Source: Macrocystis pyrifera
Lineage: Eukaryota; Sar; Phaeophyceae; Laminariales; Laminariaceae
NCBI GenBank assembly: GCA_031763025.1
Contig: JASSKH010000001.1
Location: 21,057,142 to 21,121,141 of the forward strand
Reading direction: 5' to 3'
Length of the DNA: 64,000 nucleotides
Shown here: positions 1 to 58,900 of the stretch, one piece after another
How the letters are laid out: each line of letters opens with the position of its first letter
How positions within the stretch are numbered: the stretch's first letter is position 1
Notes under the pieces: generated by a model
Told to the model about the DNA's origin: nothing
The model's input: the letters and a program-made list of their open reading frames with translations, nothing else
Databases searched by the model: none
Position numbers and translations under genes: made by a program

Positions 1-1990
1 TGTAGTGCTGCTGCGTTGTTGCCGTGCATCATGCTGGAAGTGTACATATTTTCGGATCGTCAATAAAATTCCGTAGGTTTCGCGATGGCAGCATACTAGG
101 GTACATCATGCTTTTTTTCTTCCATATTTTCATATCGTTGCTATGCTGCTGCTGCTGCTGCTGCCAACGCTGCTGCTGCCAACGCTGCGGCGATTCATTG
201 CAGCTTCTGCTGCTGCTAATGCTGTAGCTGCTTCTGCTGCTAATGCTGCCGCAATATCCACTGAATGTTCGTATGTACTCGGATTATTGCTTTTATTGGT
301 CGTTTTTGTACCCAAATGGTTCTTTTAATACGTGAAAAATATTTTTGACGTTTTGCTCCTGCATTTTGCGTACGTACTGATTTTTCTCGTTTTTGGCTTG
401 ATTTTTTTTCCTATCGTTGCTATGTTGCTGCTTGCTGCTGCTGTGGTGCTGCTGCGTTGTTGCCGTACATAATGCTGCACTTGTGTGTGTACATATTTCT
501 GTATCGTCACTAAATTTCCGTAGGTTTTGCGATCGCGGCATACCAGGGTACATAGTGTTCTTCTTCCTTATTTTCATATCGTTGCCATGTTGCTGCTGCC
601 AACGCGGATTATTGTTTTTGTTGGCCGTTTTTGTACCCAAATGTTTTTTTTTATACGTAAAAAAAAATATTTTGGTCGTTTTGCTCCTGCATTTTGCGTA
701 CGAACTACTTTTTCTCGTATTTTAGCTTGGTTATTTTCGTATTATTGTTGCTATGCTGCTGCTGCTGCGTTGTTGCCGTACAGCATGCGGGGGTGGGTCT
801 ATCTATAGTGAGGTACCAAAAATGCTTTTCGGACGGACTCGGGGTACATACTTTTTTTCTTCCTTCTATTCATATCGTTGCTATGCTGCTGCTGCCGCCA
901 ACGCTGTGGCGATCCGTTGCTGCTCTGCTGCTGCTGCTGCTGCTGCTGCTGCTAGTGGTGCCGCGATTTCACTGAATGTTCGTATGTACTCGGATAATTG
1001 TGTTTCTTGGTCGTTTTGTCGTTTTGTGGCGCTGCTGCGTTGTTCCCGTACACATCATGCTGGACATGATTTGTGTGCCTATTACACTTGTGCGTGTGTA
1101 CATATTTCTGTATCGTCAACGATTTTTTTTTGTGGTGTTGCTGCGTTGTTGCCGTACATCATGCTGGACGTGATTTGTGTGTTTATTACACTCGTGTGTG
1201 TGTACATATTTCTGTATCGTCAATAAATACCGTAGGTTTTGCGATTGCGGCAGACCAGGGTACATAGTTTTTTTTTCTTCCTTCTTTTCATATCGTTGCT
1301 TGTGTTGCGGCGATCCGTTGCTGCTGCTGCTGCTGCTAATGCTAATAATAATGCTGCCGCAATATTCACTGGATGTTCGCATGTACTCGGGTTATTGTTT
1401 TTCTTGATCGTTTTTGTACCTAAATGGTCGTTTGGGTTCCTGGAAAAAATATTTTGGTCATTTTGCTGCTGCATTTTGCGTACGTACAGCTTTTTCTCGT
1501 TTTGGGCTTCGTTCTTTCCATATAGCTGCTACGCTGCTGTGGTGCTGCTGCTGCGTTGTACATCATGCTGGTCATTTGTGTGTACATATTTTTGTTTCGC
1601 CGATGAAATTCCGTAGCTTTAGCGGTCGCCGCATACCAGGGTACGTACTTTGTTTCTTCTTTTTTATCATATCTTTGCTATGCCGCTACTGCTGCCAACG
1701 CTGCGGCGATCCATTGCTGCTTCTGCTGCTGCTATCGTTGCTAATGCTGATGCAACCACTGCTCGAAGCCGTTGCGGCTGCGGCTGATACTGCTAATGCT
1801 GGCTCAATATCCACTGATTGTTCTTATGTATTCGGATTACTGTTTTTCTTGGTCGTTTTTGCACCCAAATGGTCGTTTTGGTACGTTAAAAAAATATTTT
1901 GGCCGTTTTCCTGCTGCGTTTTACGCATGTACTTGCTGCTTCTGCTACTGCTGCTACCGTCGTATAGCAAGCAATTACGTACTGCTGTTG
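1..1990. repeat. Degenerate CTG-rich tandem array
   Basis: A repeating block contains, in order: a GCTGCTGCGTTGTTGCC motif, a GTACATATTT..CGTC stretch, a CCGTAGGTTT..GCG stretch, a TCATATCGTTGCTATG stretch, a GCTGCT/GCTAATGCT microsatellite, and a TGTACTCGG..GTCGTTTTTGTACCCAAATGG stretch. The anchor motif recurs near 5, 446, 759, 1029, 1135 and 1541, so unit length varies from about 106 to 445 bp through internal deletion. The array is open at the left edge of the window. Cys-, Leu- and Ala-rich open frames in it are products of the triplet repeat and are not called genes. Confidence 0.85.
925..953. repeat. (CTG)n microsatellite tract
   Basis: Uninterrupted CTG triplets inside the third unit of the larger array. 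It is the longest pure triplet run seen in the window. Shorter GCTGCT runs occur near 142-180 and 1318-1338. Confidence 0.9.
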
Positions 1991-2026
1991 TGCCGCTGTA
2001 GAGCAGTACAAATAATGAACTGAACT

Positions 2027-2060
2027 CCCCCCCCCCCCCCCCCCCCCTTCCCCCTCCCCC
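2027..2060. repeat. Poly-C tract
   Basis: A run of 21 C followed by TT and further C-rich sequence, directly between the CTG-rich array and the exon-like segment that follows. Its length may be unreliable because homopolymers of this size are prone to sequencing error. Confidence 0.9.
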
Positions 2061-2112
2061 GCCATTCCCTGCACGCCACTCCCGCCCCGCGCACCCTGTT
2101 TACTTCGACCAG

Positions 2113-2275
2113 GTCGGTGGCAAGTGCTACAACTGCCGCCTGACGGACTCCACCATCAAAGACGGAGACATCATCCTCAAGCGCAAGAAGACTCCCTTCC
2201 ATTTCGCCTGCTCCAGGGCTTCGCGGAATTCCGAAGCAGTACGCCAAGCAGATTGTCTCCATCCAGGACGAATGA
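2113..2275 (+). pseudogene. Exon-like 3' end of a Cys/His zinc-binding protein (unidentified)
   Basis: From 2113 the frame reads through VGGKCYNCRLTDSTIKDGD and on to a HFAC motif, giving C-x2-C, about 21 residues, then H-x2-C. That spacing is typical of a small structural zinc finger and loosely recalls PARP-type fingers, which usually have a longer middle. A shift of one base near 2211-2219 moves into a frame reading GIPKQYAKQIVSIQDE and then TGA at 2273-2275, which looks like a natural C-terminus. The sequence TTCGACCAG before 2113 could be a splice acceptor. This is either the last exon of a gene whose upstream part lies beyond the repeat array, or a decayed copy. Family not recognised. 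Confidence 0.4.
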
Positions 2276-2736
2276 GAGGCAACAAATTGTTCCCACATTT
2301 CCCAAAATCACGATTATTTCTCCCTACACATACCCAACGGGTTCAACAGCGGACAGATCCACATTCTGGGCCTCCCGCCTCGTTACTACAGCAGCCTGCA
2401 AGACTATTTACATATCATGTCTCATCCAAACTCCTATGCTGGTTAAATCGAAATCGCGGCCGCCCAGCAACTATACAACATTTCCATAACCGTTGTTGTT
2501 GCTGGCACTGCTGCTTTCCCCTCTGTCCCGAACCTTCCTGAAACAACAGCCTGTATGTTGTATATCATCCAAATGCCATGCACTACTCCACTCTTTCCCC
2601 GCACTGATGAAAGATGTTATCCTTATTATTAGACGAATGCCATTCTTACTCTTGCGTCACCCGATCTTACGTTTCCCATTACATTCACAAATAAACGCAG
2701 TTATTACATCCTTCACCGTTTCTTACACAAATACAT
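2276..2736. other. Non-coding interval
   Basis: An open frame continues from the exon-like segment to about 2541 but loses any protein-like composition. Nothing else was recognised here. Confidence 0.5.
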
Positions 2737-2920
2737 TTTAGTTTGGTTGGCTTTGAGTATTGCCCCAATTGCAATATAACTGCAACTGGCGTCATAACAT
2801 TTAGTTTGGTTGGCTTTGGGCTAGTACCCCGATTGCAATATAACTGCAGCATTTGGCGTCAAAGCCAAAAGCCAACCGAAACTGCAATTGGCGTCATAGC
2901 CCAAAGCCAACCAAATTAAA
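2737..2920. mobile_element. Small inverted-repeat (MITE-like) element
   Basis: The left end reads TTTAGTTTGGTTGGCTTTG and the right end is its inverted complement, so the element has terminal inverted repeats of about 23 bp. A second direct copy of the left end starts near 2799, making the left half a tandem duplication. Internal blocks containing TTGCAATATAACTGCA and TTGGCGTCA also recur. There is no coding capacity. Size and structure fit a non-autonomous DNA transposon. A target-site duplication was not settled. Confidence 0.65.
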
Positions 2921-3453
2921 TGTACTTGCACAAGAAACGACGGAATACCCACTCCGAAGGAAAGCCTTGCATAATATATACCTGGCATATATAATATGAG
3001 CCGACAGGCAGGCAACAAGACATACAACCATCCAGACAGGCAAAAAGGCAGATAGTCAGAAAACAAACATTGTTGCAGGGGGAGAAAGGGAACGAGAAAG
3101 AGAGAGCGAGAGTGAGAGTGGCAGAGTCACGTACAGATAAAAAAACAGAGGCACGCCCAAATGATCGCATGCAACGTGATGTACTGTAGCACCACACGCC
3201 TCAAACGCAGCCTCCACAGCGCTCCTTTCTTCTGGAAATGCGAAATCGCAGTTATAGTTAGCTCATTATAGTGGTGCTGCTATGATGGCACGCGGCCTCA
3301 GTACAACTATATATAGGTTCGCCGCTAACAATGGGACGTCGTCAGCACGGGGCGCAACCCTTCATGGTACGTCTTGCTCGACCTGCATTACGACGCATGA
3401 ATATCGATAGCACCACTGCTGAATAAGACCACACATACATGCTATTAATATAA

Positions 3454-3634
3454 TATAGGGTTTCCCCGTATTTTTTACAAAACGCCGTGAAAGAACGTCG
3501 CGGAGAACGTCGTCTCAGTTCATAAAATATCGTCGTGAAGTTCGCCGTCACGTTTGAAGGACAGTTTGGCGAGTAGTCTGCGAAAGTTATGGAGATCTCG
3601 CCGCTCGTGCCTTTTCGTGAACAACGAAGGCCCG
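3454..3634. mobile_element. Transposon left-end fragment, copy 1
   Basis: Begins TATAGGGTTTCCCC and runs through CG-rich imperfect repeats (AACGTCG) to GAACAACGAAGGCCCG. It is nearly identical to 4459-4639. The same terminal motif appears inverted at 5858 and 6767, which marks this as one end of a terminal-inverted-repeat DNA transposon. TA dinucleotides at the edges would suit a TA target site. Confidence 0.75.
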
Positions 3635-4268
3635 CGCTTAAACTTGAACGCATGCTCCGCAAAAACGTAAAATCCCACGCACGCACGTACCATTCAAGAT
3701 AGGAGTCGTCCGATTCGTACGTAATCGTCTCGCCAAACTGAGGATTCGAAGAGGAATCATTGTCCGGCATACTCTCTTGGCGGTGTCTTGGTTAGAGGCT
3801 GGATGTCGACGAGTAGTTTTGATTGTCGGAGGAGGTAATGTGTTGTGTCGGGGAGTGGGGGTGCTGGTCGCCGATAAACTGTCGTCGAATTGCAGCAAAA
3901 GATTTTACAACCCAGGTTCTCTTTTTCCGTGGGACACTGATGACATGGAAACGGTAGTTGTCCCCGCGGGTGTGTGAAGATAAAAGCTTTCGTTTAACAA
4001 AAGTGGTACGAGTCCCTACGGACGGCGGGTAGATTGGGGTAAAATAGTAGTGCGTTGCGACCGTGCATGTCTGCGTGTAAATTCACATACGGCGGCCCCA
4101 AGTTTGTACAGCAGACGTTGTGCGCAAGGGAGGGGGGAGGTTCACACGTCTGTGAGAGTTTGTGGTCGTGAAATCCAATTTCCTACATTTATTTACAGTA
4201 TGCCGATTCGCGCATCCCTAATGCTCTCATCACCTGTAACTCATGAACCCGCATCTATCTCATGACAC
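3635..4268. other. Interval with no recognised gene
   Basis: Apart from the possible exon at 3691-3770, nothing was recognised. Both strands carry short open frames of unremarkable composition. The motif GGATGTCGACGAGTAG at 3800-3815 matches the end of the dispersed LINE-tail repeat described elsewhere in the window. Confidence 0.4.
3691..3770 (-). CDS. Possible first exon of an unidentified protein
   Basis: An ATG at 3770 opens an acidic stretch beginning MPDNDSSSNPQFGETITYES. It is followed at 3690 by a strong donor-like GTACGTGCG. No family was recognised. The next bases downstream on this strand belong to a transposon end (3454-3634), so the segment could be the start of a transposase gene or chance. 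Low confidence. Confidence 0.2.
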
Positions 4269-6959: not shown

Positions 6960-8230
6960 ACCTAGGGTTTCTACGTAGGAGCAAAAATAATAACTTGTCC
7001 CACTTAAAAAATGATTTAAAAACCGTATAACAGCAGTGTTTTTTTTTCCAGTTTAATGTATAAAATAAGAAAACTAGGTAATCAGGGTACATCTAACCCA
7101 CTTACACGACTTTTTTTGTCACGGTACACCGTTTGCTGGTAAAATGTCAATATCCGTCCCTTTAAGTCACAAAAATGGTACACCAGTGTATTTTTACCAG
7201 TTTACGGAACAAAAAATAAAACGAGGTAATCAGGGCACACCAAATCCGAGTTAGATTGCGTTTTCTGTCATGGTATACCTTTTTATGGTAAAATTTTCAA
7301 TGTCTGGTGTAGCTTATAATCACGAACAAGTTCATGGATACAAACGCATTTATGTTATGCGAATAGTCAAGCGTAGCTTATATTTCCGAACAAACACCTT
7401 ATGAATGGGCCCACGAATGAGAAAAGTACCAAAAACAGGCGAACCCGAGGAAAAACGTTGAGAATCGGCTAACGAACGAAAACAACAAAAAAACCAACAA
7501 AACAAAACGATCAACCAAAACTCCTAAAAAGAAATGGACAATAATCATAACTGAGCAAGATAATCGCGAAATACGGATAAAAACGATGATCGCAAAAAAG
7601 TGGGGAACACATCGTTCTCGTCGAAAACGAACATGCAAGCGGTGCTTTACGTGCGTCTTCTTCTACAACTCATACAAGCAGTCAAGCGTAGCTTATATTT
7701 ATGAACAATTAACTCACGATAGGGAAAAATACGACAAACGGACGAAAACGAGGAAAAACTTCAAAAAGACGAAAACGAAAAAAAGGCCAAAAACATCTAA
7801 AAAATTGTTCGACCAACTCTAAAAACAAAATTGGAACAGAATCAAAACTGAGCGAGATAATCGCAAAAAAAAAAAAACGGATAAACCGATGAAAAAATCG
7901 CAAAAATGGGGCAAACATGGAAATTCTTCGAAAACAAATAATGCAAGCAGTGCTTTACGTGCGTCCCCGGCTACAACTCCGTACTAGTACGTGAGAACTG
8001 CGAGCTCACATAGGAACAATCACAAAAAAAACAAAACTCTAGGGGAAAACGTTAAGAATCGGCCAAAACGCGAAAAATACCCGAAAACGGAAAAAAAAGC
8101 GGAAACATACAAAAAATCGATCGACCAAAAAGCCAAAAAAGGGGAAAATAATTTAAACTGAGTGAGATAATCGCAAAAAAAGGGATTGAACCGATGAACA
8201 AATCGCAAATACAGGGTAAACATCGTGACT
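6960..8230. repeat. Dispersed repeat family with internal tandem blocks, copy 1
   Basis: The first half holds about 160-bp blocks, each with a GGTACACC motif, TTTTTACCAGTTTACGG, a GGTAATCAGGG stretch, CATTTTCTGTCA-like sequence and GGTATACC. The second half holds about 310-bp blocks with CAAGCGTAGCTTATATTT, a GAAAACG-rich stretch, CTGAGC(A/G)AGATAATCGC, and GCAAGCGGTGCTTTACGTGCG. Both block types recur inverted at 51830-53280. Lys- and Arg-rich open frames follow from A-richness and are not called. Confidence 0.7.
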
Positions 8231-18502: not shown

Positions 18503-19230
18503 CGTAAGTACCCCAGGTAGGGTACTTATTTTCTTCTTTTGATATGCTTTATGTCTGTACTCGTATGTACGAAAGATAAAGCGCAGCACGGCACAGCAGC
18601 ACCACAAAACAATGAAAATGAAACTGAATTTTTCGGAAAGAAAAAAAATCCTCGTCTCTCGTGTAATATTTTCCTGCCTTTTGGAACACCTTACACCGAT
18701 CGAAAACAAGAAAAGAAAAAAACCAAACGGCAGCGCTTCTCTCTCAGCGACGTACGCAGCCCGCCCCTCTCGCGACCATCTCGCCACCGATTCGGTCCGA
18801 GTAAAGCTTTCCTCCCTCTCTTCCACAGTGAGCCCCGTCGCCCGCCTCGCGTGAAGCCCGGTGCTCACCGTGGACTTCTTTCGCCAGCTCGACAATGTTG
18901 GTACTCAGACTGGGTACCTCCCTTTATGATTTTCAACCCGGTCGCAAAAACAAGCACCGCTTGAATATCATATTACAATCCCGAACGACCCTTAAATACT
19001 CGTACGTACTCTATCAAAAATAAAAAATGGAGGCCAGACAGAGCCCATTCATGCATCCCTCGTGTCTCGAGGCACACGCGACGCCTAGGCACGAAAGCGG
19101 CGACTGCGCTCCTTACAACCCCCCCTCTACTCGCCAGCACCCGCTGACACCCGCAACGGCGCCGGGTTCGCCCGCGGCACCGTGCTCGGAGTACACGCAC
19201 GCACACGAAGCGAAAGAAGAAAAAAGGAAG
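18500..19230. repeat. Dispersed repeat, copy 1 (inverted copy at 53280-53860)
   Basis: Read on the minus strand, this matches 53280-53860 over some 600 bp. Shared stretches include GTGAGCACCGGGCTT, AGAGAGGGAGGAAA, a GGTCGCGAGA motif, and GTGTCTCGAG beside a GGCGTCGCG-type patch. Parallel short frames encode a similar Arg-rich run (RRRVCLETR) in both copies, but stops and differing frames argue against a gene. A palindrome AGTACCCCAGGTAGGGTACT sits near the left end (18508-18527). Confidence 0.65.
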
Positions 19231-26366: not shown

Positions 26367-27436
26367 ATGTTACAACAGAAAATTTTGCCAGATATTGCGC
26401 ATGAGACGTACGGACCAGACTCTACCATTGAATACGCCTACGCCACGACGACCGTTCAAAGCTGTTCGGCCGGAGAGAATGCGGAAATACCTCCAAACAC
26501 CTTTATTAAGGCCATAACTCTACCGGCTAAAGTGCAGGGAAAAGCGGCCTCGGACATTAAAATGGCAAGCCTGAAAAATAACAATCTCTACACTCTCCTA
26601 CCGACGACCTCTGTCTCCCCAGGACACAAGATCATCGAGAGTAGGTGGGTTTACGTCAAGGCGCACAACTCACACAAGAGACGTGTTATTGCTTTAGGAT
26701 GGGGGTAATTGCCGAGCATTGACTGCGGCAGCACGTTTGGCTCCGTCTTCAGACTCCAGAGCATCCGCAAGATCCTGGCAATAGCGGCGGGGTGCTATGT
26801 GGAGTGTTGGCAGTTAGACTACAACACCACGCTTCTGAACGCCGATGCCACAGAGGAAGTCTACGTCAAGATGGCACCCGGATACGAGCAATTAGACCAA
26901 AACGGAGTCCCACTGGTAATGAGGCTGTTGAAAAGCCTATACGGCCTCCGACATAGCTCGATTAACTGGTGGAACACGATCGACAAACATCTGGTAGAAA
27001 TTGTCTTCAAAAATCTCAAGTCGGATCCGTGCGTCTATACCTACGCGGAGTGCAGTGCCGTTTATATCGTTACCCTGTATGCCGACGACTTTCTTTTGCT
27101 TGGAAAATACGTCCTGGTGCAGAGGCGGATTAAGCAGAAGCTCATGAGTCGTTTCTCAATGACGGACATCGGAGACATGTCGCTCGTGCTCAAGATGGTG
27201 GTACCTGTGACCGCGAGAAGGGGACAGTGACCATCATTCAGGAGAAATGTACCAAGTCCCCGCTGGAGCGGTACGGTATGGCAATCTGCAATTCAACGTA
27301 CACGACTGGTGTGAGACAAGAGCGGTCGCTGGACAAGCCGGACGAGAGACTCCGACGTATGAAGGAGAAACAGCGTTTCCAGGCCATCACGGGCAGTGTA
27401 TTGTACCTTGGACAGGTGACTCGTCACGACAATTAA
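26367..27436 (+). pseudogene. Copia reverse transcriptase (RVT_2), broken
   Basis: The frame from 26367 carries KIIESRWVYVKAHNSHKRRV and is stopped by TAA at 26706. The same frame continues from 26709 with the RT core: RLQSIRKILAIAAGCYVECW, QLDYNTTLLNADATEEVYVK, MAPGYEQLDQNG, and RLLKSLYGLRHSSINWW. It reaches the catalytic YADDFLLLG with YADD at 27078-27089. It stops at 27230, after which a shifted frame runs to 27436 with a FQAITGSVLYLGQVTRHDN connection-like segment. Both catalytic Asp residues are kept, but stops and shifts prevent full translation. Confidence 0.85.
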
Positions 27437-37430: not shown

Positions 37431-39816
37431 GCAGGCACTTTGCGTCCAACAGACAAATACGTAGACCGACAAAACGCCGAGAGTTCGACAGGCAGCTTTT
37501 TATGTCCGATGAAAAGTGTCGTGAACGAGTAGTCGTGAGGGTCGTCTCCACTCCCAACCAGCATAACCAGCCCCGTAATACGTCTGGCATGGTTGAGTTT
37601 TTCACTGCGGCTATTATTGATGCGATCGAAAAAGAGGTACCACCCCCTCCACGTTGCCACCGCAGACATGGATGGTGTGAGTCTGCGGAAACCTTGACCG
37701 CATTCATATTAGCATGGACAGAGAGGGAGGACGCACTACAATTCTTACGTGCCCACCCCCGGGATAGAACCGCGTGGAAGATACTGATATCTGCGTGTGC
37801 GAACCGTCAGAAGATGATTGCCGCAGGACTGCATGCGTACTTCAAAGCGTACATCGCTAAAACCGAACGATTCCTAGCGAACAACGACCAGAGAGGCTTT
37901 TACAAGCACCTTAAGAGTACGGTAGGATTGGAAGGGACTAAAGCGAGAAGCGAACAGTTCATTAGGAACGAGGATGGCACGCTGTTGCGGGATAAGGTGC
38001 GAATTCCAGAACGATGGGGGCGGTTTTACCGCAAACTCTTGAACACGAAATCGCTTCAACTCGATCCCACGATCATCGACCTCTTGCCACCACGACCGCT
38101 TAAACTGTCGCTCGGAGATGAACCATCCATGGACGAGATGATGAAAGCTGTCAAATTGGAAGCTGTCGGGCCAGATGGTCTCCCGGCCGAACTCCTGAAA
38201 TCGACCACCCCGCATTCGCCCAGCGCTTTCACATCATCCTTGTCAATGTTTGGGTAACAGGAGAAGTCCCCCAGCATTGGAAAGATGCGATTATCAAGGC
38301 CCTTCACAAAAAAGAAGGACCGAACTGATTGCAACAACCACAGAGGGATTTCGCTTGTTTCCCACGCAGGCAAAGTTTTGTTGAAAATCGTCGCGTCCCG
38401 CCTCAGCAACTTCTCCGAGACCGAGGAATTACTCCCGGAGGAACAGTGCGGCTTCCGCTACGCACGATCAACGATTGATATGTTGTTCGTCGTGCGCCGG
38501 TTGCAAGAGCTTGGACGACAGAGGAAAACCCCCCTGTACTTGTGCTTCATCGATCTGCAGAAAGCGGACGACACTGTCGACCGAGAGCTGTTTTGGGAGA
38601 TACTCACACGTTTGGGTGTACCAACCAAGATGCTGAGATTTACCCGTAATTTCCACGATGGCATGCGGGCTCGCGTGCGTATGGATGACGGCGAGCACTC
38701 GGAATGGTTTGATGTCACGCAGGGGCTGCGGCAAGGCGGTGTGCTATCACCGTTACTGTTCAACGTATTCTTCGCTGCTGCGTTACACGTCGTACTAGTA
38801 CGCTTCAGCCATAACGAAGCCACCGTAAGGGATTTGGTCCAACGCAGTGATCTGGAGTAGTCGGAACGGAGGAGCAGGAGCCGTTGGCGTGCGTGCGAAG
38901 GGCTGTATGGGGCATGTTGTACGCTGATGACGCAGGAATTGTCTCGAAGTCGGCTGAAGGGGTCGCGAAAATGATGACAGTCATCGTGACTGTCTTCAAA
39001 GCAGCAGGCCTCACGGCGTCGGAAAAGAAGTCAGAGACAATGCTTCTACAAACGCCAAACAAAAAAAAACCCTCGCACCACCGCTCGTCATCGAAGCAGC
39101 AGGCCAGAGGTATAAGCAGACGGCCCAGCTCTTATACTCAGGCGGCATTATCCACGAAAACGCTGACCTCTCGCTCGAAATCGACCGACGGATCCGTATC
39201 ATGCGAGCATGCCTCAAACGGTTCGGCCCGGAGCTGTATGATAGGACGACCGCCCCCCGTAGCCCGAAAGTTCGAATAAATGCTGAAGGCCGAGGTGATT
39301 GAGACCCTGCCGTACGGATGTGTGACGTGGACCCTCAGAGCGGAACACTTTGCCAAGCTTCGAACGGCTCACCACCAAGTGCTGTTGCGAGTCATTGGCT
39401 TCCAGCGCCGACTTCGTACTGACCACACCACCCTGACGTACGCGAAGGCCCTCGAGATGACACGTTGCGAGAGCATCGGAACGACCATTCGCAAACGGTG
39501 GCTCTTCTTCACGGGGGGGGTGGCACGGCAAAGCAAGGAGCGATTACCCAGTCGGGTAATGTTCGGGACGATGGCTGGTGGAGAGAACCCGAGACCTGGC
39601 GGACAGTTTAAGACTTGGCATAGATGCATAGTCGAGAAGACCTTAGGGAGTTCCGAGCCACCGAAGGGTCAACGGAACTTGCCCCCTTGGTGTTTGGAGT
39701 TGAGACCGCGCTGTGGCGCTGTGGTCCACTGCTGCCAAAAAGGCGGGGAAGTGGTTCCGGGGGGTCCTGGAAGCAGCCGAACGGTTCATGGTGAGGTGGC
39801 ACGAGGCTGGGGCTGA
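37430..39816 (+). pseudogene. LINE reverse transcriptase, plus copy, broken
   Basis: The frame to 38257 covers the linker and RT blocks 0-1 (LDPTIIDLLPPRPLKLSLGD, VGPDGLPAELLK). After a shift, 38285-38860 gives [52 protein letters not shown] (usual Y of block A replaced by D) and [17 protein letters not shown]. From 38884 the frame has MLYADDAGIVS with YADD at 38920-38931, then GLTASEKKSETM. From 39280 the C-terminal region has GCVTWTLRAEHFAKLRTAHH and GTMAGGENPRPGG, ending near 39816. Four open blocks remain from one ancestral ORF2. Confidence 0.85.
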
Positions 39817-51829: not shown

Positions 51830-53280
51830 ATAAATACGGACGCACGTAAAGCACCGCTTGCATGTTGGTTTTCGACGAATTTACGATCTTCACCCCATTT
51901 TTGCCTTTTTTCATCGGTTTATCCGTATTTTGCGATTATCTCGCTTAGTTTTGATAATTTTCTACTTTGTTTTCGGAGTTTGGTCGATCAATATTTTTTG
52001 GATTTTTTGGATATTTACTCGTTTTCGTTTTTTTTTTTGCCGATAATCAAACGTTTCCCCTCGGTTTCGTCCGTTTTTGGTATGACGTACTTTTCTCATT
52101 CGTGATGTATTTGTTAGGAAATGTCAGCTACGCTTGACTATTCGTATGAATACGCTGTACGCTTGTATCTATGAACTTGTTCGTACACCAGAGATTGTTT
52201 TTTTACCAGAAAGAGGTATACCATGACAGAAGACGCCATCTAACTTGAGTTTGGTGTGCACTGATTATCTGGTTTTCATGTTTTGCATCGTAAATTGGGA
52301 AACAATCCCTCACTGGTATGCCGTTTTTTTGCCATTTTTTTCAGTGGGACATGCTTCTAATTGTGTTCCTAATAAGTGATAAAAACCCTATAACGAGGGA
52401 CCATAGTAAATAGGACCAAATGTTGTTAGTAAATAGAGCAAACTATATAGGTTTTTGTGTGGACCGTAGGTCCTACGTTTTTACTATGCCCCCCCGTAAT
52501 AGTTTAAAACCTAGGGAATTATTGCCTTTTTCCGACTCCGGCGGCCCCCACGCACCCCCGGCGGCTCTCCGAGGGCCGCCCCTCGCCCCAGGGGGGGGCT
52601 AACACGCCGGCCACGCGTGTTGCACAATGTTCGTGTCATTTGGAACACGCCTTCCAGCAAGAGTAATACTTTGGCGTATACTGCTTCTTGTCTAAACAGC
52701 AGTGTATGCATATGCCGTCTCTATAAATTACCAAGCTTTTGAGCAATTTGCCTTTTTAGGACCTCTGAGAGAGAAGAGGAGTTGATGCAAAATAAAAGTA
52801 AATATAGGGTTTACCCTAGGGTAATCTAGAAGCAAAATTAATTTCCTGTCCTAACGGACAAAATTACAAAAAACGGTACACCAGCGCTTTTTTTTTTTGC
52901 CAGTTTACGGTACGAAAAACTCTCACCAGGCCATCAGGGTACACACAACCCAAGTAAGATGACATTTTCTGTCAAGGTATACCGTTTTTTGGCGAAACAT
53001 CCATGTCCGGCCGTCTCACTTGCAAAAATGCCAAAAACGGTACACCATCGTATTTTTGCCAGTTTACGGTACGAAAAGTAAAACGAGGTGATCAGGGCAC
53101 ACCAAACCCAAGTCATATGACATTTTCTGTCAAGGTATACCGTTTTTTTCTGGCAAACAAACAATGTCCCGGTACAGCTTATATTTTGGAACAAACACTG
53201 CGTGCGTCAATAGAAGCGCCTTCTCGTACTCATATTCATACGAACATACCACGTACGAGTCAAGCGTTGCTTACATAAGC
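51830..53280. repeat. Dispersed repeat family, copy 2 (inverted relative to 6960-8230)
   Basis: Near 51840 it carries ACGCACGTAAAGCACCGCTTGCAT and CGATTATCTCGCTTAGTTTTG, inverted forms of the 7560-8230 blocks. From 52840 it has repeated GGTACACC..TTTTTGCCAGTTTACGG, ATCAGGG.ACAC and GACATTTTCTGTCAAGGTATACC blocks matching 7100-7290. A short MITE (52390-52500) lies inside. Confidence 0.75.
52390..52500. mobile_element. 105-bp MITE, copy 1
   Basis: Ends read ACGAGGGACCATAGTAAATA and, inverted, TTACTATGCCCCCCCGTAAT. The interior contains ATATAGGTTTTTGTGTGGACCG. The same ends occur at 62265-62377 and 62788-62890, with the middle in the opposite orientation. Confidence 0.7.
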
Positions 53281-53860
53281 TGAAGCCATTTTATTTCGTT
53301 TCGTGCGCGTGCGTGTAGTCAGAACACGGTACCGAGGGCGAGCCCGGCGCCGCCGCGGGTGTCAGCGGGTGCTAGCAGGCAGAGGGGGTGTTGCAAGTAG
53401 CGCCTTCGCCGTTTGCATAGCTAGGCGTCGCGTGTGTCTCGAGACACGCAGGAAGCACGAATGGTATCTGTCTAGCCTCCTTGTGAGGCTCCGCTTGCAC
53501 CATATACGAGATATAAGGGTTGTTTTGATATGCGAAATAGTATTCAAGCGGTGCTTATTTTGGCGACCAAACTAAACGTCAAAGAGACTTCAATGGAGTT
53601 TGAGCACCAACTTTGTCGAAGTGGCGAAGCAGGGCCACAGTGAGCACCGGGCTTGACGCGAGGCGGGGCGACGACGCCCACTGTGGCAGAGAGGGAGGAA
53701 AACTTTATCCGGACCCAATCGATGATGAGGTGGTCGCGAGACGGGCGGGCGGCGTACAAGGCTAAGAGGGAAGCTCTGCTGTTCGTTTTTTTTTCTTTTT
53801 GACCGGTGGAACGGGCAAGCGGTAAACGCAACTCGTGAGTCACGTTTAAAAAATCAACTC
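53281..53860. repeat. Dispersed repeat, copy 2 (inverted copy of 18500-19230)
   Basis: Shares with the first copy a GCGCGTGCGTGTAGTC-like start, GGTGTCAGCGGGTGCTAGCA, GTGTGTCTCGAGACACGC, GTGAGCACCGGGCTTGACGC and AGAGAGGGAGGAAAACTTTA. No intact coding frame is shared between copies. Confidence 0.65.
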
Positions 53861-54404
53861 AGGGGACGATAAGTAAATATCCCCTTGTACCCGCGTCGTC
53901 CAACCCCATACAAACATACAAACCGTTGGATACTCCGGTCAGCAAGTCAGGCGATCTTACGTACCGAACACATGCCAAGGCTGAGACTGACGCGGCCACG
54001 AACCGCGGCTGAGCAAGATACGAAAGCATAATTGCTCGCAGTAGCCTTTGTCCTTTTGTGGTCTAGTCTAAAGCGCTCGATTCGAGCAGCTACCTCGGCA
54101 CGAGCAGCGAGAAGCCTAACAATATCAACACAGCAGTCCAGGTTGAAGCATGCCTTCAAAAAAGAGGTGGGTGCAGATGTGCAGATGGTGTAGACTGCTG
54201 TAGACCGACCTACCGTTGTATCTATCGCTGTCGCTCGTGACTCTTGACCAGAGGGTTTGGCTGTTGATTCACAGCAGTTTTTTTTCCTTGTGTCGAATGT
54301 GTCCCTGTTTGGTTGGTCGGATCTGTACGTCAGCTGTGAGTTCAACCGATCGGTCGATACTCAACTTTCTGCACACCCCCGACAGCTCATGAGCTAGCTC
54401 ATCT
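53861..54404. other. Interval with no recognised gene
   Basis: A 132-codon minus frame (53947-54345) lacks recognisable motifs. The segment ACGTCAGCTGTGAGTTC at 54328-54344 recurs near 4693. Confidence 0.4.
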
Positions 54405-54650
54405 ATTGTGCATAGCTCACGCTTCGAAAACATGTGCAGATGAGCTACCGCCTATAGCTCAAGCCGGGGGAAACATGTGTAGCTAATGTAGCTCCTATAG
54501 CTCATCTCGGGCGCAGATGAGCTACTGTAACTCATGTAGCTCCTATAGCTCAGCCTGGGAAAATGTGTGTAGATCAGCTATCTTCTGTAGCTCAAGCCTT
54601 CAAAACATGTGCAGATGAAGTACCACCTATAGCTCAAGCCTTCCAAACAT
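54405..54650. repeat. AGCTCA-rich minisatellite, about 43-48 bp units
   Basis: Some six degenerate units, each with ATAGCTCAAGCC or a variant, AAACATGTG(C/T), AGATGAGCTA and a CCTATAGCTC junction. It directly abuts the truncated helicase gene. Confidence 0.85.
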
Positions 54651-56471
54651 CGACGCCGCCGACAGAGCTGGGCTAAAGCTGGACGGGCTCCCTCGAGGTG
54701 TCATCGGCTGCTGTCCGGTCTACAGGAAGTTCTCCATCGTTGGTAAAGGCAAGCGGAAATTCACCATCAACAGAATGCAGGTGCCTCTGTCTCTTGGTAT
54801 TATTTCCCCAGTCTATCGAGCACAAGGCGAAACCATCCCTAAACTTGTGCTCGACATTCGTAAGCCAGTAGACGGCTATATGGACAGCGCGGCCGTCTAC
54901 GTCGCTCTGTCCCGAGCGACCGATGCCAGCAAGCTCTTCTTGCTGTCGCCGGTTACTCTCGACGATCTGACCCATCCACAGGACGACGATGTAGCGGCTA
55001 TGATCTACTACCTCGAACGCCTCGACAAGGCTACACTAGCCTTCTTCTTGGATGATCCCTCTTCATTCCGACCGGCCACGACAAGTCCTCCGGCTAGTTA
55101 TACATCCCACACCAACGACGGACAAACAGACACCGGCTCCATCCGCTCTTCACCTTTTCTGCCGCCCAATGAGAACAACAATTGCTTCTTCAACACCGCC
55201 ATCGCCTCCGCCATAGCTGCTTGGGAAGGACACCCTCTCCCTAACCCAACCATGGCAACACCAGCTGGAGCCATCTTCTTCTCCACCCTTGCGGCTGTGC
55301 GTGCCTGCAATTTCGACGGCAAGCCTCTCCAACGCACCCTCTTGGTAAGTTCTTGCTTGTTCTGCTATCCACATCTCATCGTAATAATACCCCCCAATAC
55401 TTACCGTCGCCCGCAAGTACCCATATATACATAAATACTACGTTGTGCTTTCATGTGTCTTCTAAACGTATTGTATCATCTCGTTCGGTATGCGTCGCAT
55501 TCTTTGGCGGAATGCAGGGATCAAAGGCTCAAGCACGTGACAAGATCCTTGGTAGTAGCGGCCTACCGGGCGCAGGATCCGTAATGGGAACGCCAGGCTC
55601 CATATACGAAGCGATCACCCTTCGACCTGATGATCAACTCCACCCCAACAGCGGGAGGCCAGGTGACGTCGTGGAACGGCATGCTCGTATCATGTACACT
55701 CGGATGGTTCTCGGATTCAACTGGCACTACACTACCGATTGCCATATCGAAGACCATGACCATATCGAGATAACCGCATCCCAATGTGCACGATGGCGAG
55801 ATCCCGCACCAGTCTTGATTCCGCACGGACCGCCCCAGTCACTCCATGATGCAGTCAATGCCTTGTTCCTAACCGGAGCCGCCTCCGACTTCTCATTTCC
55901 TGGACCTGTTCCGTGCCCCCCCTGCGACGAGAGCTGCGCCCGGCACATCAGCACATCCACATGGTCGATTCTTCCTTGGAGTGCGGACAACGCCCCAGAT
56001 CGCGTTTTCTTCGCGTCTGCACGTGTAGACATCTACGAGGACGCCGGAGAGCCGCCAGCACCGTCACCCATTTTGATGATAGGCGTTGAGTACTGCCTCG
56101 TAGCTGTCATCTACTCCCTTCCGAACCATTTCGTGACCCAGTTGCGTTCGAGAAGGCGGTGGTTGAAGTACGATTGCATACTCGGGGTGAGTACCACGTC
56201 TTGCGACGATTTCGACTATGACTGGTATCATGGTTTCCAGCATATGTATGTCTACCTTCGAAAGCCGATGACCTTGCCTGTTCCCCAGGCACAAACGACA
56301 CCATACCGTAGTGCTAGCTACCATGAGCGCGCAAGCCAAGAACGCGCAAAGATAATCGAGGCGACTAGACAAGGACCCATCATGCCTCCGCCTTACCGAA
56401 GTCCTGGCCGCTACGACGTGGGGAGCGCAGCTGTGCCTTGCCGACTCGACTCCGACGTACCGCCGCCTTGA
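54649..56471 (+). pseudogene. 5'-truncated Pif1/Helitron-type helicase fused to a ubiquitin-specific-protease-like domain
   Basis: Two exons: 54649-55344 and 55518-56471, joined by a GT-AG intron (GTAAGT donor, AATGCAG acceptor) that keeps phase. The first encodes the helicase C-terminal part, VPLSLGIISPVYRAQGETI (motif V region) and AVYVALSRATDASKLFLLSP (motif VI), as in Pif1 and Helitron helicases that unwind DNA with ATP. Motifs I-III are missing upstream, where the minisatellite begins. From 55170 the protein reads NENNNCFFNTAIASAIAAW, a Cys box like that of C19 ubiquitin proteases (Cys 55183-55185). The second exon has a CPPCDESC cluster and later YCLVAVIYSLPNHFVTQLRS then WLKYD, the His/Asp box (His 56127-56129, Asp 56172-56174). 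All three catalytic-type residues are present. The frame is otherwise intact to TGA 56471. The start is a truncation edge; a Helitron-like transposon origin is inferred. Confidence 0.75.
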
Positions 56472-57328
56472 GCGTCTCCCGTGTTCTTTACATGTGTGTT
56501 GAAACGTTTTGATTTTTGATGCGATATTGCTTCTCGATTAGGACTGCCTGCCTTCTTGTTACCCTCTTTTTGCTAGAACAATTTTTGTAGAAATGTTGCA
56601 CGGCGCGTCCAGCCTTTCGAGTTCTGCGCGGCTATATTTATATTAACTGTTCGGTCGACAGAGTGTTGTTTACGGGGTGCATGTACGTGACGATCATCGG
56701 CGAAAAGTCTACTTGTATGCCTTTTGTCATCTTTGACTTCACGGCAGCGTTTTATTTGGTGTGGGTGTGTTCGCGACACATCGAGGTCATCGAAAAATCT
56801 GCGCGATGCTCGACTGTGACGTTTTGTTTATGTGTTTGCTTCGAAATAGCGGCAACATCAGCATCTGCAAACAGGTAATACTCTACGTGGCAAATATCGA
56901 CGTCGCGAGAGAATTGTCATACCGCCGGCCAACCTTTTGTTTTATTGTAAAACCCTAGGGAACAGCGGGGCAACCCTTGCCCTGGCCTGAAGTACGATTA
57001 CAGCGTCGGCACTACTTGCTGATTCGAGGTGTTTGGGACCGGGCACTTTCGGTGTCTTTCCTATTAATACAATGGATGGAAGGAGTCTCGTGACACGGGC
57101 ATATATATCAGGTCCTGTTCAACTGCTGCGCACTCTCATTACTTGTAGACTGATCATTACCCCCAACCTAGGTACGTACTGGTAGCTATATTATTGTAGT
57201 AGTTCGAAGGATTATTATGTCTGTAGTGCATATCATTTACAACATCGTATACGAGTATTGTTCTTCCATTACATCAGTAATTATCGACCATATCAAATCA
57301 CGTCGACGCCATCTCCTTGCCGCTGGAC
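56472..57328. other. Intergenic interval
   Basis: Near 56880-57000 two blocks, GCAAATATCGACGTCGCGAGAG-like and CCTAGGGAACAGCGGGGCAA, match 9490-9515 and 10355-10380, indicating a dispersed repeat. No gene recognised. Confidence 0.45.
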
Positions 57329-57661
57329 TTTTTTTTTTTTTCTTTACTCATCACTTTCACTTTCCAGCCTAATTCGTAAGAGGTTTTACCCTCGATGACC
57401 TTCTGGACAAGCCGTGGTCACAGGTGTCTTCCCTTCTCCCCCCCGGTACGTGCCTTTATTTTTTATCGCGCATAGGGTTCAGCATTCCCACTGCTCGTCG
57501 ATTTTCATCGAATGTAACTGACTCACGCTCTCGCGCTTCCGCTAATCAATCTCTTTTATGCAAGAAAAATCCCCTACGAGCATGCACTCGGTGAGACTTG
57601 AACCCACGAAATTGATCTTGATAGGCACTCGGATCACCTACCAAGCCACCGGGGACGCCGG
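57329..57661 (-). mobile_element. tRNA-derived SINE-like element, copy 1
   Basis: Read on the minus strand the head has GGTGGCTTGGTAGGTGATCC (box A, 57631-57650) and GGGTTCAAGTCTC (box B, 57593-57605), spaced as in RNA polymerase III tRNA promoters. The body follows, and the 3' end is an A-rich run (T-rich on the plus strand at 57329-57343). The acceptor stem does not pair, so it is not a tRNA gene. A second copy lies at 58550-58900. Confidence 0.7.
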
Positions 57662-58549: not shown

Positions 58550-58900
58550 GTATTTTGTTTTGTTTTGTTTTGTGCGTTTTGTTTTAATCATTACTTTTAC
58601 TTTCCAGCCTAACTCGTAGGAGATTTTACCCTCAGCGGTGTTCTGGACAAGCCCTGGTCACAGGTGTCGTCCCTTCTCCCCCCCGGTACGTGCCTCTATT
58701 TTTTGTCGCGCATAGGGTTCAGCATTCCCACTGCTCGTCGATTTTCATCGAATGTAGCTAACTCACGCTCTCGCGCTTTCCGCTAATCAATTTTTCATGC
58801 AAGAAAAAGTCCCTTCGAGCATGCACTCGGTGAGACTTGAACCCACGAAATTGGTCTTGATAGGCACGCGGACCACCTACCAAGCCACCGGGGACGCCGG
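58550..58900 (-). mobile_element. tRNA-derived SINE-like element, copy 2
   Basis: Matches copy 1 through the body (CATAGGGTTCAGCATTCCCA, CTGCTCGTCGATTTTCATCG, GAGCATGCACTCGGTGAGAC on the plus strand) and the tRNA-like head. Its A-rich 3' tail is a (CAAAA)n run, seen as TTTTGTTTTGTTTTGTTTTG near 58552-58572. Identity to copy 1 is high by eye, about 90%. Confidence 0.7.

Follow-up and report, generated by a model that had tools for sequence, protein, structure and literature searches.

The question raised by this locus is which kind of protein domain follows the helicase part of a Helitron-type gene in the window, that is, in the whole stretch of 64,000 nucleotides analysed here. OTU and VTD domains have been reported in Helitrons (in the consulted parts of PMC9741609 and PMC4067079). 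Helitron helicases with a protease tail are thus already known, and any new aspect would lie in which protease type is present. A preliminary description had proposed a single gene at 54649..56471 in which a Pif1/Helitron-type helicase carries a C19-like ubiquitin protease domain. The features of the locus are:

52805..56988, + strand: non-autonomous Helitron/Helentron-like element, nearly complete, ~4.2 kb (blastn to the C198 copy)
52805..52821, + strand: 5' subterminal palindromic repeat TAGGGTTTACCCTAGGG (from the sequence; other copies start TTCCCTAGGGTTT)
54395..54643, + strand: diverged minisatellite of ~42 bp, directly before the coding stub
54619..55344, + strand: exon 1, 242 codons, with PIF1-type motifs V-VI, linker and Cys box
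54784-54942, + strand: PIF1-type motifs V-VI, within exon 1
55168-55203, + strand: Cys box NENNNCFFNTAI, with the Cys codon (C189) at 55183-55185
55345..55517, + strand: intron, GT-AG, phase 0, 173 bp (based on reading frame and relatives)
55518..56471, + strand: exon 2, 317 codons then stop, with the remainder of the protease-like domain
55914-55925, + strand: CxxC, exon 2
56127-56129, + strand: His codon (H446), exon 2
56160-56174, + strand: W..D box (D461), exon 2
56950..56962, + strand: AAACCCTAGGGAA, inverted repeat in subterminal position at the 3' end (the family 5' end, TTCCCTAGGGTTT, is its reverse complement)
56967..56983, + strand: 3' subterminal hairpin GGGGCAA CCC TTGCCCT (folding energy)

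One gene across a phase-keeping intron, as first described, is confirmed: the exons join in phase over 55345-55517 and the spliced frame is open (242 + 317 codons). Among 1000 dinucleotide shuffles of the region none contained an open run of at least 318 codons, and eight contained one of at least 242 codons. Splicing is well supported even without transcripts, because C141 and C218, two diverged relatives from this genome, keep GT..AG at the same codon boundary with a different intron sequence. Motifs V-VI, the Cys box (C189), the CxxC pair and the His/Asp box (H446, D461) are likewise all present. The designation as a helicase applies in part: motifs V-VI are there, but they form a C-terminal stub, and motifs I-IV have no match. 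Exon 1 matched Pfam Viral_helicase1 at E 0.011, below the family cut-off, and the PDB PIF1 structure 5o6b at E 3.8e-4, with the PIF1 likeness confined to its C-terminal part. Upstream exons were sought on the + strand from 26001 to 54700, where neither Rep nor helicase motifs I-IV gave a Pfam match; Helitron_like_N (HUH Rep) had no match for the window copy in the + frames of 26001-64000, nor had AP endonuclease after the helicase in the + frames downstream within the window. An NCBIfam search found nothing, and the same holds for tRNA and Rfam scans of the window. Phage matches to exon 1 were rejected as relatives, being only weak helicase matches. Elsewhere in the window, reverse transcriptase matches are located at 26616-27194 and 38309-39063 (+) (RVT_2 E 2.1e-33, RVT_1 E 1.2e-19 and 0.0055).

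The extent 54649..56471 proved too small, the feature being the element at 52805-56988. By blastn the window copy aligns to positions 7-4180 of 4186 of the C198 copy at 96.0%, and its outermost 6-9 bp at both ends differ from other copies (eroded ends). Element boundaries were placed by eye, using 12 upstream and 8 downstream stretches of copies. Five copies (L011-L014, L016) start within 2 bp of one 5' end, eight downstream stretches end at CCCTACA(A)T (by eye; other copies are cut or different), and no obvious target site duplication was seen by eye at eight left and eight right ends. In the family 31 bp separate the AAACCCTAGGGAA repeat from the 3' end, and the hairpin comes after this repeat. 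Folding energies are -7.9 kcal/mol for the family 5' end (6/200 shuffles as good), -8.8 kcal/mol for the family 3' hairpin (10/200) and -7.2 kcal/mol for the window version of that hairpin (35/200).

The consulted part of PMC4067079 describes the Helentron/HINE layout as a 5' palindromic repeat that recurs in inverted form close to the 3' end, together with a hairpin; the marks of this class, subterminal palindromic inverted repeats of 12-15 bp and a 3' hairpin, are found here. With the HINE/DINE-1-like Helentrons of that part of the paper the window family shares a 13-bp palindromic 5' repeat with its inverse near the 3' end, a hairpin 8 nt from the 3' end, tandem repeats and a high copy number. 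The 31 bp from inner repeat to 3' end compare with 38-60 bp in the mite families covered there and, unlike HINE/DINE-1-like elements, the window family retains ~1.8 kb of gene. The element ends thus resemble those of non-autonomous Helentrons/HINEs, and the family is a high-copy one: in the genome (537 Mb, 223 contigs) exon 2 has at least 125 scored matches, its own included, out of 1207 candidates, all exon 2 match counts being lower bounds.

Because it has motifs V-VI only and no Rep, the window copy reads as a deletion derivative. Being non-autonomous it cannot supply the whole protein, and it is probably without activity of its own. A diverged copy, L022, has the same ends but retains less of the gene, which brings the number of derivatives to at least two. 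Three further fragments in the window, 18711-19209 (-), 7171-7292 (+) and 52199-52339 (-), are 76-84% like the element's 5' non-coding part and perhaps represent other non-autonomous relatives. Downstream of the element, 57336-57661 and 58577-58900 are two direct copies of ~325 bp, 91% alike; they are perhaps tRNA-derived SINEs, because tRNA-like A and B boxes can be read by eye on their minus strand, where ARAGORN finds no tRNA.

Relatives with more of the protein occur in the same genome. PIF1 matches number 82, and in one of the eight loci for which downstream DNA was fetched (C141) the window-type domain follows; C218 was found by eye, comparing the PIF1-match list with a second match list, and was then confirmed. 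Over ~10 kb of one strand, C141 carries DUF6570 (E 1e-16), Helitron_like_N (E 2.9e-15), a PIF1-type helicase (PIF1 E 7.9e-10; AAA_30 E 3.8e-5, below the family cut-off) and the same C-terminal domain, with 52% identity to window product residues 19-530. DUF6570 and Helitron_like_N were found in one frame, with X written at stops. A relative with an upstream Rep, as the preliminary description had asked for, thus exists, though it is broken. Rep is separated from the helicase by about 4.5 kb containing stops, which makes C141 as one gene an inferred state. In C218 a helicase 53-76% identical to that of C141 is followed by the domain, and Rep and DUF6570 had no match in ~5 kb upstream of this helicase. 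Both relatives are disrupted, C141 by stops and C218 by frameshifts, and neither ends typical of the window family nor element ends of their own were found at these loci. The Rep, helicase and DUF6570 of C141, used as queries, matched nothing at E<=1e-3 in the window or the 12 upstream stretches, so the 4.2-kb copies are devoid of these C141-type parts; no close full-length parent of the window family was seen. Outside this genome, no relatives appeared in viral_contigs or genome_contigs, searched with a few exact short peptides that could miss distant relatives, and none in plasmids searched with exon 2. By eye, two viral contigs carry USP-like genes adjoining a ribonucleotide-reductase-like gene (L001 4965-5729, L002 3866-4612).

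A second Helitron family in the same genome has long open frames with PIF1, a 2B domain and a C-terminal OTU (L031 934-3447, L032 1-3450; Pfam OTU at the C-terminus of the PIF1 protein in these two scanned of the eight PIF1 loci). This family is perhaps recently active, because the top PIF1 loci score nearly alike.

The C-terminal domain has been under strong constraint. Comparison of the window copy with C141 gives dN 0.18, dS 0.94 and dN/dS 0.19 for the helicase part (132 codons), and dN 0.27, dS 1.50 and dN/dS 0.18 for the domain (311 codons), with dS near saturation; over this comparison the domain is as constrained as the helicase part. The window-type majority sequence against L022 gives dN 0.081 and dS 0.213, and 13 recent copies pooled give Sd 43 and Nd 90, with dN biased down by the choice of these copies from among the top-scoring protein matches. 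Low dN/dS against C141 and L022, together with the pooled counts of the recent copies, shows that the deeper lineage was constrained, whereas the derivatives are so only weakly. Window, C141 and C218 all retain the Cys. Of the Cys boxes read in fetched loci, 17 keep the Cys, two have Trp and two Arg (overlapping loci counted twice), so some copies have lost this residue; in L050 the reading frame around it is lost. All four of window, C141, L022 and C218 have the NH[FL] box; the Asp of W..D is present in window, L022 and C218, with Tyr in C141.

What type of protease does the domain resemble? A C19 assignment is plausible: likeness at the motif level and a weak profile-profile signal speak for it, whereas Pfam gives no UCH match and PDB no USP. 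As in the C19 USPs (USP7, 8, 12, 15), Cys box, CxxC, YxLxxV, His and W..D, read by eye, are colinear; in contrast to these USPs there is no HMM-detectable homology and one CxxC pair only, and the QQDxxEF box is not placeable. Motif patterns chosen post hoc, with the sequence already seen, each have a single occurrence in the six-frame window, and 0/100,000 shuffles contain all of them. With USP-derived templates, 47 of 3000 shuffles reached the Cys-box score, 371 the His-box score and six both; among 539 window frames of at least 60 aa, exon 1 ranked third (Cys box) and exon 2 outside the top six (His box). Pfam UCH/C19 had no match at E<=5 and E<=10 with HMMER filters on, no USP in PDB was matched by phmmer or profile, a PDB profile search with A2 returned five matches at E 0.58-1.9, none of them a USP, and against a three-sequence USP HMM the product scored no better than shuffles. 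AlphaFold on exon 2 alone yielded a pLDDT of 34.6, useless as a fold.

Profile-profile alignment (hhalign) of the single domain scored 21.97 over 118 columns against three USPs (11/600 shuffles as high) and lower, 20.7 over 58 columns, against six. The family profile scored 25.16 against six USPs (1/500 column shuffles as high) and, with C218 added, 24.91 (3/1000 as high, none of the three spanning at least 100 columns). The USP profile alignment runs over 106-118 colinear columns and matches CxxC, YxLxxV, H and W..D; hhalign probabilities versus USPs are 1-5%. Aligned separately to USPs, the Cys and His halves gave E 0.026 and 0.007. Among 73 window frames of at least 130 aa, exon 1 ranked top, its alignment covering 13 Cys-box columns, and exon 2 came fifth but was aligned over a greater length than any other of the eight listed. 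Judged from these sequence comparisons, the locus represents a Helitron with a C-terminal cysteine-protease-like domain that is probably a deubiquitinase.

Other readings of the domain have to be weighed against this. It is doubtful that the domain is no protease at all but a conserved domain at the Helitron C-terminus that binds DNA or zinc and whose motif likeness is due to chance: the lack of a family or structure match would fit, as would the fact that shuffles sometimes reach USP scores (e.g. 11/600), whereas each half, that with the Cys and that with the His, points to USPs with order and register correct, and window, C141 and C218 retain the Cys. It is unlikely that the domain is some other papain-like cysteine protease, OTU-like or unnamed, or belongs to a new protease family, with transposon or host proteins and not ubiquitin as targets, even though by eye the Cys box also fits OTU and L031 and L032 carry OTU at the same place. 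No OTU profile matches the window-type domain, whereas the L032 control gives OTU at E 4.3e-9, and the Cys-His distance here, 257 residues, is long for OTU; the W..D after the His is a further difference. Also unlikely, in our view, is a diverged VTD (viral-tegument-like) deubiquitinase, with an acid-x-His ~130 residues after the Cys and a non-catalytic NHF..W..D box. This class is already reported in Helitrons, DrT1-VTD2 having C322, D451 and H453 (consulted part of PMC9741609); the window product has C189, then D316-C-H318 and E320-D-H322, and alignment columns D199, H200 and H202 are invariant in three aligned rows. Yet an invariable Asp-x-His would be expected, and two of the three aligned rows have Leu or Pro in place of H318; Asp stands at the E320 position in C141 and C218 alone, and L022 has Arg in place of H322, E/D-D-H322 being mostly kept. 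Herpes_teg_N had no match, and it is the NH[FL] and W..D boxes that are kept among the relatives, apart from the Tyr of C141. According to the same part of PMC9741609, the Asp-x-His of VTDs is invariable and the Helitrons that bear them have an AP endonuclease; here neither is established.

For the element itself, an origin without deletion, in which the 3' part of a Helitron gene was taken up by a non-autonomous Helentron unrelated to it, seems improbable. Rolling-circle elements do pick up gene fragments (PMC4067079, consulted part), and neither C141 nor C218 showed the ends of the window family. Against capture, the fragment is the gene's 3' end adjoining the element's 3' end, as expected from deletion, and L022 has the same ends yet a shorter part of the same gene.

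On balance we favour the joint reading of a non-autonomous deletion derivative of DUF6570-Rep-PIF1-protease-like Helitrons whose domain is a papain-fold deubiquitinase, most likely C19/USP-like. The ancestor would have been a Helitron protein composed of DUF6570, HUH Rep (Helitron_like_N), PIF1 helicase and the cysteine-protease-like domain, C141 presumably having once been a single gene of this kind. An internal deletion would then have left the window family with the element ends and the last part of the gene, and short copies could be mobilised in trans by the Rep and helicase of full-length relatives. The domain, with Cys box, CxxC, His box and W..D as its putative papain-fold, C19/USP-like signature, may have as its target the Rep-helicase, in cis, or host factors present where the element inserts. 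We propose that the transposase would be spared proteasomal turnover because the domain removes ubiquitin. For Helitron VTDs, prevention of proteasomal degradation of proteins needed for transposition has been proposed (PMC9741609, consulted part).

The nearest known systems are alike in outline. OTU Helitrons/Helentrons (PMC4067079, consulted part; L031, L032) also combine a Rep/PIF1 rolling-circle element with a ubiquitin-field cysteine protease, in L031 and L032 at the same C-terminal position as the window-type domain, and VTD-bearing Helentrons (PMC9741609, consulted part) combine a rolling-circle transposon protein with a thiol deubiquitinase. In the literature searched (open-licence PMC papers) no USP/C19-type domain on a Helitron was found. 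A tentative possibility is that USP/C19-like domains are a third, independently acquired deubiquitinase type at the Helitron transposase C-terminus, besides OTU and VTD, and that deubiquitination was repeatedly recruited after the helicase. This genome offers two Helitron families for comparison, the OTU-type and the window-type, the latter with a constrained domain and recognisable active-site candidates. If true, the repeated recruitment of ubiquitin proteases would point to ubiquitin-dependent turnover as a general host brake on transposition.
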